Below, one piece after another: positions 386 to 61,113 of a stretch of 64,000 nucleotides of DNA. Both the position numbers and the translations under genes were made by a program. The DNA lies in contig NZ_BMZF01000011.1 of assembly GCF_014652655.1 (NCBI RefSeq), positions 1 through 64,000 of the forward strand, written 5' to 3'. The notes under the pieces were generated by a model. The model was not told where the DNA came from. It made no database searches and worked only from the letters and a program-made list of their open reading frames with translations. This stretch comes from Paramylibacter ulvae (GTDB lineage: Bacteria > Pseudomonadota > Alphaproteobacteria > Rhodobacterales > Rhodobacteraceae). Position 1 is the first letter of the stretch. Each line of letters opens with the position of its first letter.

Positions 386-2155
386 TTAAAAGAGGTGACG
401 TAAGTTCAGCCCTTCATATTCAATTGCGTGTATTGCTTCTTGTAGCGTTTTTAACTGAATATCACGCGAACCATACCTTGCTCTCATTCCTGTCGAGCTA
501 CGCCCAGTGATCGCGTCTTTCGTGTCAATGTGTAGCTGTGCATTGCCACACGCATCTTCGAAGTTGTGTCTAAAGCTATGAAAGTTAGTTTTTGCGGTCT
601 TGGCATCACATAGCTTCAAGAACCTGCTAAAGTGCTTTGAGAAATGATCAGAGTAACTACCATCCGCGCCAATCTTGATGGATGGGAAAAGCCGTGTTTC
701 TCCTGATTGTTTCATTTCTCTTACAAATTTCAAAAAACCGATGTCGATCAATGTCGGGTGGATCGGAATCTTTCGTTGGGCATTTGGTGACTTAATTCCT
801 TTATCACCCACGTTGCGCTCGTTCGCTAATTTACCATTGATGTCGAGGTAGGGAACTTTATCTGCTTCTTTGATGTCATCAATTTCAAGTTGGCATAGTT
901 CGCTTAAGCGTCCACCTGAAAATAACCCGAGTAGGGGTATCCAGAACTTAGGACTCCCTTTTATCAGTTGCGTTCCTGACCGTGACCAGTGCGTTTCTGA
1001 AAGGCAGCCTGTGAATACTGGCGCGTTAAATATCTTTTCGAGTTGTTCATTGGAAAACGGGTCTCGGGCTTCGCGAGGGTTGCTTCGAATGTTGTATTTG
1101 AGACCTCTCAATGGTTGAGGCGCATTATCATCGAAGTAATGGGCATCTACCCAATTCCAAAACAAGCTAACTTTGCCGATCCCTTTGTTGATGTTTTCGA
1201 AACTCATCGGCTCAAGCTGCAATTCGGACGCCCTTGCAGAAGCCTTGTGAATATCAAGATGTTTGAGTTCTTTTCGAATGCGCCAACTTGGAGGAAGACG
1301 ACTAAAGGTTTCCTTGAACAGCCGCCCATCAGCTTTGCTGTACTGATCTAGATGTTTATCACCACAAACCTCAAGGAAGTTATTTACCCAAGATAAATTA
1401 CTCCGTTTCGTTTTGTCGCTCCAGCCATGTTCGACATCTTTAACCCACTGATCCACGGCTTCACTTAGGTTAGGGTATTTTGAGGCCGTCAGGGCTTCAA
1501 CCTGAGTCACTGAGTCCACCTTGAGGGTGTCGACTATGTTCCCCTCATTTCTGGATAGACGGGCTTCGTGCGCCCTTACAATGCTCCTATACATTTCTCG
1601 GTGAAGGAGACTCCAACTGGGCGATCCCTCAGCTAGCTTTAGTTCTAGTCCATCCCATTCGAGTACTTCTTTGGTTTCTTCTTTTACGAAATCGTCTACT
1701 TTGCCTCGTGCCAGATGATACCTTGCATACTCTAGCATCTCTTCAATTGTGTCGCTTTGTTCCTCAAAGGTATCTCTGGGTAAATATTGCCGTTCGCTAA
1801 TCCAAATCCTCTCGCCATCGATATCCTGAAATTCATCGAACCCTCTCAGGCGTTCATCTTCGTCTTCTTCCAAAATGTATGTGTAATATATTTCCCCAAA
1901 GAGCTTTATTTGCTCTTCGGTCAATTCATCCAAATAAGGCTCATTGGATTGAGCTAACCGTTTTCTATGAGCGTCGAAGCGTTCATCAACTTCAACAGCT
2001 TTGACCCTGACTAAACTTAAGGCTTCGGCTCTGTCTTTTGTTCCAAGCGAGAAGGTCTCTTCTTTTTTACCATAGGTCTTTGCGATGTCCTTGGGGACAG
2101 TTGCACGGTGATAATAAGTCGCGTTTCTACGGTAGAGTCGGGTATGTCCAGTCAT
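386..2155 (-). CDS. Tyrosine recombinase (phage-type integrase), 589 aa
   Basis: A site-specific recombinase that should insert and excise the element it sits in. The N-terminus (TRLYRRNATYYHRATVPKDI) matches the short N-terminal domain of proteobacterial tRNA-targeting integrases (DUF6538 type). The C-terminal half carries the catalytic signature: an Arg in GLFSGGRLSEL, the HSFRH box and a terminal Tyr in MRARYGS. The usual second His before the Tyr appears as ITGRSS, so that position is not canonical. An upstream in-frame codon at 2203 exists, but the Met at 2155 begins the conserved region and is preferred; no strong ribosome-binding site is visible. The gene begins about 100 bases from the 3' end of tRNA-Ala and is transcribed away from it, the usual geometry for an element integrated at a tRNA 3' end. 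The element therefore continues off the left edge. Its base composition is visibly more AT-rich than the neighbours. Confidence 0.9.
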   Translation of the reverse strand: MTGHTRLYRRNATYYHRATVPKDIAKTYGKKEETFSLGTKDRAEALSLVRVKAVEVDERFDAHRKRLAQSNEPYLDELTEEQIKLFGEIYYTYILEEDEDERLRGFDEFQDIDGERIWISERQYLPRDTFEEQSDTIEEMLEYARYHLARGKVDDFVKEETKEVLEWDGLELKLAEGSPSWSLLHREMYRSIVRAHEARLSRNEGNIVDTLKVDSVTQVEALTASKYPNLSEAVDQWVKDVEHGWSDKTKRSNLSWVNNFLEVCGDKHLDQYSKADGRLFKETFSRLPPSWRIRKELKHLDIHKASARASELQLEPMSFENINKGIGKVSLFWNWVDAHYFDDNAPQPLRGLKYNIRSNPREARDPFSNEQLEKIFNAPVFTGCLSETHWSRSGTQLIKGSPKFWIPLLGLFSGGRLSELCQLEIDDIKEADKVPYLDINGKLANERNVGDKGIKSPNAQRKIPIHPTLIDIGFLKFVREMKQSGETRLFPSIKIGADGSYSDHFSKHFSRFLKLCDAKTAKTNFHSFRHNFEDACGNAQLHIDTKDAITGRSSTGMRARYGSRDIQLKTLQEAIHAIEYEGLNLRHLF

Positions 2156-3613: not shown

Positions 3614-4267
3614 ATGTCAGCAATTGAACCACGGCGCGAAAACGTCACCCCATCTCATGAATTGGTTTATCGCAGCCTGCGATCATCCATCATGCACGGT
3701 GAAATGGCACCAGCGCAATCGGTAACCATTCGGGGCATCGCGAATACATATGGTGTGAGCATGACCCCCGCACGCGAGGCGGTACGCCGTCTAAGTGCCG
3801 AGGGTGCGTTGCAAATATCATCAACAGGGCGGGTATCAACGCCCGCACTCACTAACGAACGGATCGAGGAACTGGCATCCATTCGCGCGTTGATGGAACC
3901 CGAAATGGCTAGCCGTGCGTTGCCCCGTGTGCACCTGAATTTGATCGAGCGTTTGGGACGGATTAATAGCCTGATTGATCAGGCGATCGTCAAGGATGAT
4001 GCGATCACCTATGTGCGCACCAATCTGGAATTTCACCGTACATTATATTTGCGTGCTCAGGCGCCAGCGATGCTGGCGATTGTGGAAACGGTTTGGTTGC
4101 AATTGGGGCCAACGATGCAGGCGTTATATGCCCGCTTGCAACGGCGCGAGGCATCAAACCACCACCGCACCGCGCTGGCCGCGATGAAGGCAGGAGATGA
4201 GCCGTCCTTGCGCCTTGCTATCCGTGCGGACGTGACCCAAGGGTTGCGCATGCTGGCAAACGAATAA
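3614..4267 (+). CDS. GntR family transcriptional regulator with FCD domain, 217 aa
   Basis: A DNA-binding metabolite sensor of the FadR/FCD subfamily. Residues 10-75 form a winged helix: LVYRSLRSSIMHGEMAPAQ, then GIANTYGVSMTPAREAVRRL as the recognition helix region. The C-terminal all-helical FCD domain (about 85-210) keeps the metal-site pattern in LEFHRTLY and the His pair in NHHRTALAAM. These regulators usually bind small organic acids. The gene lies next to the TCA block, and the palindrome GTGATCAC is found at its own start and twice upstream of sucC, so a 2-oxoacid or dicarboxylate effector is plausible but unproven. It may share a transcript with the upstream metallohydrolase. It is followed by a row of three hairpins (4317-4417). 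Confidence 0.85.
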   Translation: MSAIEPRRENVTPSHELVYRSLRSSIMHGEMAPAQSVTIRGIANTYGVSMTPAREAVRRLSAEGALQISSTGRVSTPALTNERIEELASIRALMEPEMASRALPRVHLNLIERLGRINSLIDQAIVKDDAITYVRTNLEFHRTLYLRAQAPAMLAIVETVWLQLGPTMQALYARLQRREASNHHRTALAAMKAGDEPSLRLAIRADVTQGLRMLANE

Positions 4268-4316
4268 AATTAAAAAACTGCGACGGAATGTTTTTGGTGG
4301 TGCGTATTATTTGATG

Positions 4317-4417
4317 AATACGCTAACCCCTTGGCGTATTTGCCAGCCTCCTAACCCCTTGCGAGGCTAACGAACTCCCTCTGGCGATGGATGAACAAGC
4401 ATCGCCAGAGGGTTTTT
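4317..4417 (+). ncRNA. Candidate small RNA or structured 3' UTR with two repeated loops
   Basis: Three consecutive stem-loops fill the gap between the GntR gene and lpd. Hairpin 1 (4317-4340) pairs AATACGC with GCGTATT. Hairpin 2 (4345-4368) pairs AGCCTC with GAGGCT. Hairpin 3 is a 13-bp terminator stem with a T-run. Hairpins 1 and 2 expose the same ten-base loop TAACCCCTTG, although their stems are unrelated. Repeated C-rich single-stranded loops ahead of an intrinsic terminator are the layout of alphaproteobacterial trans-acting small RNAs such as the CcsR/cuckoo type, although that family's CCUCCUCCC motif is not exactly present. A TATTAT box at 4305 could be a -10 element. It could equally be the 3' UTR of the GntR mRNA. 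Confidence 0.5.
4377..4417 (+). terminator. Strong intrinsic terminator
   Basis: A perfect 13-bp stem, CCCTCTGGCGATG pairing with CATCGCCAGAGGG, around a 10-base loop is followed by TTTTTATAT on the plus strand. It ends the GntR transcript or the candidate small RNA. It lies 19 bases from the end of the convergent lpd gene but has no T-run in that direction. Confidence 0.9.
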
Positions 4418-4435
4418 ATATCATTAAATCAACGA

Positions 4436-5824
4436 TTAAGCGTGAATTGCGCCATCACCACAGGCCAATGCTGCTTCGCGCATGGCTTCTGAAAATGTGG
4501 GGTGTGCGTGGCATGTCATAGCAACGTCTTGGGCGGATGCGCCAAATTCCATTGCGACACAAATTTCATGGATCAAATCACCCGCAGATGGGCCGATCAA
4601 ATGACAGCCCAAAATGCGATCTGTTTTGGCATCCACCAACAGTTTCACAAAACCTTCGCCTTGGAACACGGCCTTGGCGCGGCCATTGCCCATGAATGTG
4701 AATTTGCCGACCTTGAAATCAACGCCTTCGTCTTTCAATTCTTCTTGGGTTTTGCCCACGGATGCGACCTCTGGTGTGGTGTAGATCACACCGGGGATCA
4801 CGCCGTAATTTACATGGCCATGTTTGCCTGCGATTACCTCGGCAACGGCCATGCCTTCGTCCTCTGCCTTATGCGCCAACATGGGGCCTTCGATCACGTC
4901 ACCAATGGCGAAAATGCCATCAACATTTGTGCGCCATTGATCATCGGTTTTGATTTGCCCACGTTCGGTTAGTTCACCGCCCAGACCATCAAACCCAAGG
5001 TTATCCATGAATGGTTTGCGACCCGTTGCCACCAAAACAACATCGGCATCAATGCTGGCATCTGTTTCATCTTTGCGCAGTTTGTAATTCACTGTGGCCT
5101 TGGTTTTTTTCGCATCAACCGATTGCACCGCCGCGCCCAAAACAAAGTTAAGCCCTTGTTTTTTCAAGGTTCGTTGCAAGGTTTTTGCAATCTCTGCATC
5201 CATGCCCGGGGTGATGTGATCCAAGAATTCAACAACCGTCACATCGCAGCCAAGACGGGCATAAACGCTACCCATTTCAAGGCCAATCACGCCTGCGCCA
5301 ATCACAACCATTGATTTTGGAACCTTTGGCAATTCCAAGGCACCTGTGGATGTGACCACAACCTTTTCGTCGATCTCGATGCCCGGCAATGAGGATGGTT
5401 CGGAGCCTGATGCGATGACGATATTTTTCGCCTTATGCACGTCTTTGCCAACGGTGACTTCGCCTTTGGCGGTGATTTTCCCCCAGCCTTTCAACCAGTC
5501 AATTTTGTTTTTCTTCATCAAGAATTCAACGCCAGATGTGTTCTGTGCGATCACGCCTGATTTATATTCTTGCATGGTTTTAAAATCGACGGATGGGGAT
5601 TTGCCCATCAGACCCATTTTGGTGAAATTATGGGTGGCTTCGTGATACATATGTGATGCGTGAAGCAATGCTTTGGATGGGATACAACCCACGTTCAAAC
5701 AGGTGCCGCCAAGGGTTTCGCGACCCTCGACAATGGCGGTTTTCAGACCCAGTTGCGCACAGCGAATTGCACAGACATAGCCGCCCGGGCCTGAACCGAT
5801 TACGATGACATCATATTCTGACAT
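4436..5824 (-). CDS. lpd: Dihydrolipoyl dehydrogenase (E3 of 2-oxoglutarate dehydrogenase), 462 aa
   Basis: This flavoprotein reoxidises dihydrolipoamide on the E2 subunit and passes electrons to NAD. Visible elements are the FAD-binding [12 protein letters not shown] at the N-terminus and the redox disulfide [13 protein letters not shown]. They are followed by the NAD-binding [17 protein letters not shown], the second FAD motif FAIGDV, and the C-terminal interface [13 protein letters not shown] with the His-Glu catalytic pair. The Met at 5824 begins the conserved sequence, and an upstream in-frame extension to 5914 is rejected. It is the last gene of the minus-strand TCA block, so it most likely serves sucAB. 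An unusual set of four 11-base repeats lies 46-89 bases upstream of the start. Confidence 0.96.
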
Positions 5825-60407: not shown

Positions 60408-60471
60408 ATTGTCGCGACAGAAGTTTGTTGTGGTCACGTATCAGCTATGCTGATCACAACAAGGAGCTGTC

Positions 60472-61113
60472 ATGCGTATCATTCTTCCAACTCTTTTTGC
60501 CGCGACAATGATCCCCGCAATATCCATTGCAGAAACCTATTCAGTGGATGTTTGGGCCGATAACTGGTTCGAAATGCGCATTGACGGTGTGCAGGTCGCA
60601 GAGGATAGCGTGCCCATCACAACCGAGCGTTCGTTTAACGCCGAAAGTTTCACATTCGTAGCCGCCGCGCCATTTGTGATTGGTGTGGTGGCCAAGGATT
60701 TCAAAGAAAACGATACGGGGCTGGAATATATCGGCAGCCGTCGCCAACAGATGGGCGATGGTGGTTTGATCGTTCAGGTAAAAAACAGTGCCGGCGAAAC
60801 CGTGGTTGTCAGCGATGAAAGCTGGCAATGTGCGGTGACCCATACCGCGCCATTGGAAAAATCTTGCGAAAAATCCGAGAACCCTGTTGCTGGCGAGGGC
60901 GTGTGTTTGTTTGAAGCAGCCGATGAACCCCAAGGTTGGGACCACGCCGATTTTGATGCATCCGATTGGCCCGCCGCCAGCGTGTATAGCGCCGCCGCCG
61001 TTGATCCCAAAATGGGGTATAATGACATCAATTGGGATGATCACGCCGCATTTATTTGGGGACCTGATCTGGAACAAAGCAATACGGTGTTATGCCGTGT
61101 CAGCGTTGAATAA
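60472..61113 (+). CDS. Secreted protein with a galactose-binding-like fold, 213 aa, unknown function
   Basis: MRIILPTLFAATMIPAISIAETYS is a signal peptide. The mature part has a beta-rich sequence: TYSVDVWADNWFEMRIDGV, a middle strand region ending GDGGLIVQVKNSAGE, then WDHADFDASDWPAASVYSAAA and the end FIWGPDLEQSNTVLCRVSVE. The block W-x-H-x-D-F-D-x-S-x-W-P is typical of the galactose-binding-like domains in glycosidases. AAGGAG lies ahead of the start. An imperfect dyad (GTTGTGGTCA and GATCACAAC) lies just upstream at 60430-60461. No family name is assigned. Confidence 0.6.
   Translation: MRIILPTLFAATMIPAISIAETYSVDVWADNWFEMRIDGVQVAEDSVPITTERSFNAESFTFVAAAPFVIGVVAKDFKENDTGLEYIGSRRQQMGDGGLIVQVKNSAGETVVVSDESWQCAVTHTAPLEKSCEKSENPVAGEGVCLFEAADEPQGWDHADFDASDWPAASVYSAAAVDPKMGYNDINWDDHAAFIWGPDLEQSNTVLCRVSVE

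Follow-up and report, generated by a model that had tools for sequence, protein, structure and literature searches.

A predicted small RNA family of the Amylibacter group with C-rich loops and a promoter resembling that of an EF-hand/ECF sigma factor operon

Introduction

Several small RNAs (sRNAs) of the Alphaproteobacteria expose C-rich loops. The cuckoo family, which includes CcsR1-4 (RSs0680a-d) of Rhodobacter sphaeroides and alpha-r14/NfeR1 and SmelA075/A099 of Sinorhizobium, consists of small stress-type RNAs in which several hairpins display the same C-rich loop, with complementarity of the Shine-Dalgarno-like kind, on unrelated stems. A DUF1127 gene (the CIN1 locus) often, though not always, accompanies them. 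Pairing of a C-rich loop with mRNA has been described for NfeR1/alpha-r14 (PMC10746234) and for GsrN of Caulobacter (PMC5869019), and the C-rich loops of SmelA075/A099 pair with G-rich translation-initiation regions or leaders (PMC3927594). GsrN has one C-rich 5' loop and a sigma-EcfG promoter and typically, though not universally, lies near general-stress genes (the phyR/nepR/ecfG locus). The AbcR1/AbcR2 sRNAs of the Rhizobiales use C/U-rich loops that pair with translation-initiation regions.

A different kind of system, the SigV-CaBP circuit of Caulobacter vibrioides, pairs an EF-hand gene with an ECF sigma factor gene. The promoter of the EF-hand gene cabp, mapped by 5'-RACE, has a -35 element GGAAA, 13 nt and a -10 element CGTTCA, and the cabp cloning primer ends in gcgcgacgga (PMC13171946). 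SigV strongly activates the cabp promoter, and the authors state that direct SigV binding has not yet been shown (PMC13171946). Here we compare with these systems an intergenic locus of Paramylibacter ulvae that lies in the window, the whole 64,000-nt stretch of DNA analyzed.

Results

Three hairpins between a GntR-family gene and lpd

The features of the locus, in window positions, are as follows.

3614 to 4267, + strand: upstream neighbor, a GntR-family regulator with an FCD domain (Pfam PF00392 and PF07729)
4278 to 4308, + strand: predicted ECF-type promoter, with an extended -35 element CTGCGACGGAAT (4278-4289) that includes the core GGAAT (4285-4289), a 13-nt spacer (4290-4302) and the -10 element CGTATT (4303-4308)
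4314 to 4417, + strand: predicted small RNA of about 104 nt (covariance models R1 and R2; start placed by reference to the -10 element, with the T-run as its end)
4317 to 4340, + strand: hairpin 1, stem AATACGC (4317-4323) / GCGTATT (4334-4340), loop TAACCCCTTG (4324-4333)
4345 to 4368, + strand: hairpin 2, stem AGCCTC (4345-4350) / GAGGCT (4363-4368), loop C-TAACCCCTTG-C with the 10-mer at 4352-4361
4377 to 4417, + strand: intrinsic-type terminator, 5' arm CCCTCTGGCGATG (4377-4389), 3' arm (4399-4412), then TTTTT (4413-4417)
4436 to 5821, - strand: downstream convergent neighbor, lpd, encoding dihydrolipoamide dehydrogenase (Pfam PF07992 and PF02852)

The original prediction described two different stems that carry the same 10-base loop, followed by a strong terminator, and precisely this arrangement is found at 4317-4417. 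The terminator stem has 13 bp, and a T-run follows it on the + strand only. The RNA had also been placed between a "TCA-linked" GntR gene and lpd; Pfam bears out both neighbors, and for the GntR gene the link is one of gene adjacency only. The gene order near the RNA is sucA-sucB-lpd, with lpd convergent with the RNA.

The folding energy of the region from 4300 to 4430 is -50.9 kcal/mol, compared with -27.9 +/- 3.2 kcal/mol for shuffled sequences (z -7.1). In the predicted fold of the window RNA, CCCC has an unpaired probability of 1.0 in both loops; UAA and UUG are predicted to be able to pair inside both loops, so the certain unpaired core is CCCC. The 10-mer TAACCCCTTG occurs eight times on both strands of the 3.17-Mb genome, and the only pair lying close together is that of the hairpin loops. 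At least three of the other six copies overlap long open reading frames, and none was recognized as a hairpin loop. No relevant match was obtained with Rfam 15, for which the whole window was searched at the gathering threshold and a permissive search and ten homologous loci were added. A generic promoter and terminator scan found nothing at the locus, its sigma-70 pattern being unsuited here and its loop limit of 8 being smaller than the terminator loop. At the left end of the window, an open reading frame resembling a tyrosine-recombinase-type integrase (386-2203, - strand) adjoins a tRNA gene (2258-2330, - strand), which suggests an integrated element there.

The RNA structure covaries within one genus-level group

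Homologous intergenic regions were sought in same-genus genomes with GntR orthologues as anchors. GntR-protein matches are present in all 33 genus genomes, with clear orthologues (at least 64% identity) in about 30, and the gaps that follow the GntR gene in many of them hold three-hairpin sequences in which the C-rich loops are kept and the stem sequences differ. Two covariance models, R1 from four homologues and R2 from 21 matches, recover the locus in 11 genus genomes; counting G022 (L098/L044) and G023 (L058, by inspection), 13 of the 33 species of the GTDB Amylibacter group have a homologue in the corresponding position, following the GntR gene and/or at the lpd 3' end. The window RNA scores 64.2 bits with R2 (E 4.9e-13), a model in which it is itself included. 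In Amylibacter kogurei 4G11, whose GntR protein is 98% identical, the RNA is about 90% identical to that of the window. Several genomes carry a second copy, and the order is then GntR, RNA 1, an opposite-strand gene, RNA 2, lpd. In the small pelagic genomes the RNA is lost, and GntR and lpd nearly touch. One first copy (L053, 2168-2264, in G013) has lost the 5' arm of hairpin 1 by deletion and retains hairpin 2 and the terminator.

Changes on both sides of a base pair were seen in 25 of the 27 pairs in an alignment of 15 distinct sequences (A5): 9 of 9 in helix 1, 6 of 7 in helix 2 and 10 of 11 in helix 3, the terminator, where every cell is paired. Overall, pairing is kept in 95.3% of cells. 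The fitting of A5 to the structure biases it toward pairing, but slid registers give only 29 to 47%. None of 500 shuffles reached the observed value on any measure. A covariance search in related genomes had been suggested at the outset, and it returned the conserved C-rich loops on covarying stems that the prediction called for. Conservation spans 13 of the 33 genus species and ends at the genus. Beyond it, neither the GntR loci of named Rhodobacteraceae (80 loci, a few of them from Amylibacter) nor R1 and R2 searches of 395 family genomes under strict filters yielded a convincing homologue. The weak R1 and R2 matches there were, on inspection, mostly ordinary terminators lacking paired C-rich-loop hairpins. 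Judged from these sequence comparisons, the locus is a real sRNA gene of a family confined to one genus-level group.

A conserved C-rich core distinct from the cuckoo motif

The two loops of the A. kogurei RNA are TAACCCCTTG and TTACCCCTTG, and other homologues share the C-rich core only. First copies have a run of C in both loops, CCC or more in loop 2, with loop 1 taking the forms TTCCCC, GACCCCT, TAACCCCTTG, TCTCCCCTTG and TGCCCCTG. Almost every copy has kept the CCC(C) core in hairpin 2, and almost every intact first copy has kept it in hairpin 1; in second copies the C core of loop 1 is often gone, and UCCC is usually found in loop 2 only. Since loop identity is not conserved across homologues, the exact 10-mer match is a species-level detail. 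The proposal that selection acts on the loop itself thus stands for the CCC(C) core and falls for the full 10-mer identity, which is specific to this species; as the alignments read, selection has acted on a C-rich core carried by a covarying stem rather than on the full 10-mer.

The likeness to the cuckoo/CcsR/alpha-r14 family could mean that the window RNA is a sibling that drifted from CCUCCUCCC to CCCC-core loops. Both share one plan, in which a C-rich loop recurs on stems of unrelated sequence and a terminator closes the RNA. In addition, loops like CCUCUCUUCCCUC occur in some homologues, and a cuckoo-like RNA in one genome (G007, L213) is a weak match of R2. We nevertheless consider such descent unlikely. 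The CCUCCUCCC motif is absent from the window RNA, whose loops have a CCCC core (TAACCCCTTG), and its neighbors are GntR and lpd, with no DUF1127 gene. Its predicted promoter would be of the ECF type, whereas the R. sphaeroides cuckoo RNAs have RpoHI/RpoHII-type promoters. Furthermore, this genome carries a genuine cuckoo/CcsR-type RNA at another locus (L092, G000:C4:19465-19557; locus position about 1361-1600, minus strand), where a DUF1127 gene (PF06568) is followed by three CCUCCUCCC hairpins (CCTCCTCCC sites), the third in the terminator loop. The genome has five CCTCCTCCC sites, none of them at the window RNA. The L092 RNA makes the window RNA at least a separate gene, and because the window RNA lacks both the CCUCCUCCC motif and the DUF1127 neighbor, we did not file it as a cuckoo RNA. 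By analogy, it may plausibly work in the same manner as one. The cuckoo-like RNA in L213 lies at about 1440-1640 and has the diverged loops CTCCTCCC, TTCCTCCC and CTCTTCCC; G007 is a streamlined pelagic genome without the GntR-linked RNA.

GsrN shares with the window RNA an exposed C-rich loop and a promoter, predicted in the window RNA, of an ECF-type sigma factor. Unlike GsrN, however, the window RNA has its C-rich loops on two hairpins, its predicted promoter is of the form GGAA-N14-CGT and linked to an EF-hand/ECF operon, and its homologous loci have GntR and/or lpd as neighbors. The AbcR1/AbcR2 sRNAs differ in structure, distribution and promoters, and no Rfam match of any kind was obtained here.

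Candidate pairing sites in mRNA

Since the known alphaproteobacterial sRNAs of this type use their C-rich loops to bind G-rich translation-initiation regions or leaders, the window RNA may by analogy act in the same way. Its loop pairs fully with CAAGGGGUUA, at about -15 to -16 kcal/mol calculated for isolated segments. The sequence AAGGGGTT is located within 2 to 12 nt of an ATG 17 times in this genome and 19 times in A. kogurei, against 9 and 12 occurrences, respectively, of a reversed-pattern control, and most of these AAGGGGTT-ATG matches are not gene starts. The only translation-initiation region with an 8-nt match that starts a recognizable long gene in both genomes is that of ccoG (AAGGGGTTCCCAATG; L241, minus strand, start at 1503), in which 8 nt are fully complementary to both loops in this species and in A. 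kogurei only. We do not put ccoG forward as a target, the site not being complementary in the other RNA-bearing species. A limited pattern search found no mRNA target conserved across species, and for this reason mRNA pairing is something that we infer.

Loops that bind a protein or sponge another G-rich RNA, instead of pairing with mRNA ribosome-binding sites, would also fit the brevity and repetition of the conserved unit (CCCC), which recall decoy RNAs, and the negative result of the limited search for conserved mRNA targets. This seems to us quite improbable, given that the alphaproteobacterial examples described with loops of this type have mRNAs as partners (PMC10746234, PMC5869019) and that the + strand loops contain no GGA (CsrA-type) motif. 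On the latter ground we rejected a CsrA sponge.

The predicted promoter matches that of an EF-hand/ECF sigma factor operon

A box of the form TGCGACGGAA-N14-CGT is conserved 31 to 38 nt upstream of the RNA in all 11 first copies, where it takes the form (T)TGCGACGGAA with 18 nt from GCGAC to CGT; it is absent before the second copies L082 and L083. The exact pattern GCGACGGA-N15-CGT has three sites in the genome of the window, before this RNA, a YghX-type dienelactone hydrolase gene (L177) and an EF-hand gene (L178). In the L178 operon (contig C5) the EF-hand gene is followed by that of an ECF sigma factor (NF009176; Pfam Sigma70_r2 and r4_2), behind which come genes for a 119-amino-acid membrane protein without a confident Pfam match and a Metal_resist protein. 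By position only, the small membrane protein would be anti-sigma-like. The box lies upstream of the ECF operon in 22 of 22 genus genomes with a full-length locus, compared with a background of 0.065 per 1.5 kb.

A weight matrix was trained on the ECF-operon promoters only, from the 22 genus genomes, and then scanned over the RNA loci. In every one of the 11 first-copy loci its top site lay 31 to 38 nt before the RNA, and loci with a second copy only had no such site. The predicted promoter of the RNA thus matches that of the sigma factor's own operon, a likeness that does not by itself prove sigma dependence. Across the 64-kb window the best site is at 4278, with 28.4 bits; the next has 17.5 bits. 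That second site (GCGACAGAAG...CACGTATC, 60412-60442, + strand) directly precedes the gene at 60472-61113, which encodes a predicted secreted protein of 213 amino acids and is a possible further regulon member.

The likeness to the SigV-CaBP circuit consists in the promoter layout GCGACGGAAn-N13-CGT (here GGAAT, 13 nt and CGTATT) and in the pairing of an EF-hand with an ECF gene. In Amylibacter, by contrast, a single upstream box appears to serve both the EF-hand and the sigma gene, and the small membrane protein and Metal_resist genes come after them; the consulted passages of PMC13171946 mention no small RNA for Caulobacter.

Other promoter classes were compared with the box. RpoHI/RpoHII and CenR (TGA-N8-TGA) promoters gave a poorer fit than the ECF-operon box. 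RpoHI/RpoHII-type promoters of the R. sphaeroides cuckoo RNAs have TTG at -35 and a TAT/A-12 region; the box begins with TTG in several homologues and with CTG in the window, and its best match is the ECF-operon box. The consensus of sigma-EcfG promoters is GGAAC-N16/17-CGTT. Against this, GGAAT-N13-CGTATT in the window has a spacer three or four bases too short, and we rejected sigma-EcfG. A literature search with the box sequence returned chance matches only.

In Cypionkella and relatives (L158, L166, L168, L170), the same GCGACGGAA box is present after the GntR gene and is followed by a gene, intradiol-dioxygenase-like in L158, instead of the RNA. The box would thus be older than the RNA at this place. 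The second copies near lpd (L087, L086, L088, L089, L082, L083) have their own conserved upstream elements, ACG...GTGAARA...TTTA with GTAT near the start; these are unlike those of the first copies, which suggests different control of the paralogues.

sRNAs derived from 3' untranslated regions are common. The window RNA begins about 50 nt past the GntR stop codon on the same strand and could be no more than the end of the GntR mRNA, its 3' untranslated region with the terminator, or else an RNA processed from that end, without a promoter of its own. This we think very unlikely. In 11 loci the stretch that separates the GntR stop from the RNA holds a conserved, promoter-type box at fixed spacing, and second copies follow an intergenic region with conserved upstream elements of its own and no GntR gene. 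The match to the sigma operon promoter and the likeness to the cabp layout likewise argue against a mere GntR 3' end. Between the two outcomes that the original prediction had allowed, an independent promoter or only a GntR 3' end, the conserved predicted box favors the former, and an ECF-dependent start at about 4314 would be the best-supported reading.

The presence of the sigma factor and that of the RNA go together in the genus: the ECF sigma factor is present in every one of the 13 RNA-bearing genomes, and the 10 genomes that lack the factor also lack the RNA (Fisher p 0.002, uncorrected for phylogeny). This co-occurrence is confounded by phylogeny and genome streamlining because the small pelagic genomes lack both.

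Discussion

Functionless hairpins around a terminator are hardly credible here: 10-mer repeats and hairpins do arise by chance, and only this species has the exact loop identity, but compensatory changes in 25 of 27 pairs, which already contradict this explanation, go together with synteny in 13 species and a conserved promoter box. Computation establishes the gene, the conservation of its structure, its terminator and the match in promoter class, and the hallmarks of a trans-acting sRNA, namely its own promoter, an intrinsic terminator and a conserved secondary structure, are present as predictions. We think it probable that the + strand at 4278-4417 holds a stand-alone, ECF-sigma-dependent gene for a trans-acting sRNA whose C-rich loops pair with G-rich mRNA sites.

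For this sRNA gene, we infer actual transcription, sigma dependence, an inducing signal and mRNA pairing along the following lines. An ECF-type sigma factor, most likely that of the EF-hand operon, would start transcription at about 4314 from the -35 and -10 elements at 4285-4308, and transcription would end at the intrinsic-type terminator, at 4417. The resulting RNA of about 104 nt would consist of two hairpins displaying unpaired CCCC cores and of the terminator hairpin. The C-rich loops would serve as seeds acting in trans on G-rich stretches of Shine-Dalgarno-like sequence (AAGGGG type) close to ribosome-binding sites, and the translation or decay of the paired mRNAs would be altered when the sigma factor is active, under stress of the envelope, metal, calcium or acid type. 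The RNA is probably a stress-response regulator. More tentatively, and with somewhat less than even confidence, we suggest that an EF-hand/ECF-sigma envelope-stress response has its non-coding arm in the new Amylibacter-group family, whose loops would have evolved a CCCC seed distinct from the cuckoo CCUCCUCCC seed in the same cell.

As far as the consulted sources show, this sRNA family is previously undescribed, and it is a multi-hairpin, C-rich-loop family with an unusually specific promoter prediction. A literature search found nothing naming both Amylibacter and an sRNA. With this finding a marine bacterial group gains an sRNA family that is unannotated and strongly covarying, and for which the promoter match predicts the sigma factor and the loops predict the seed. 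If the proposal is true, two parallel, seed-separated anti-Shine-Dalgarno circuits would operate in one cell, and the separate cuckoo RNA in the same genome lets one ask how the cell keeps two C-rich-loop RNAs apart.
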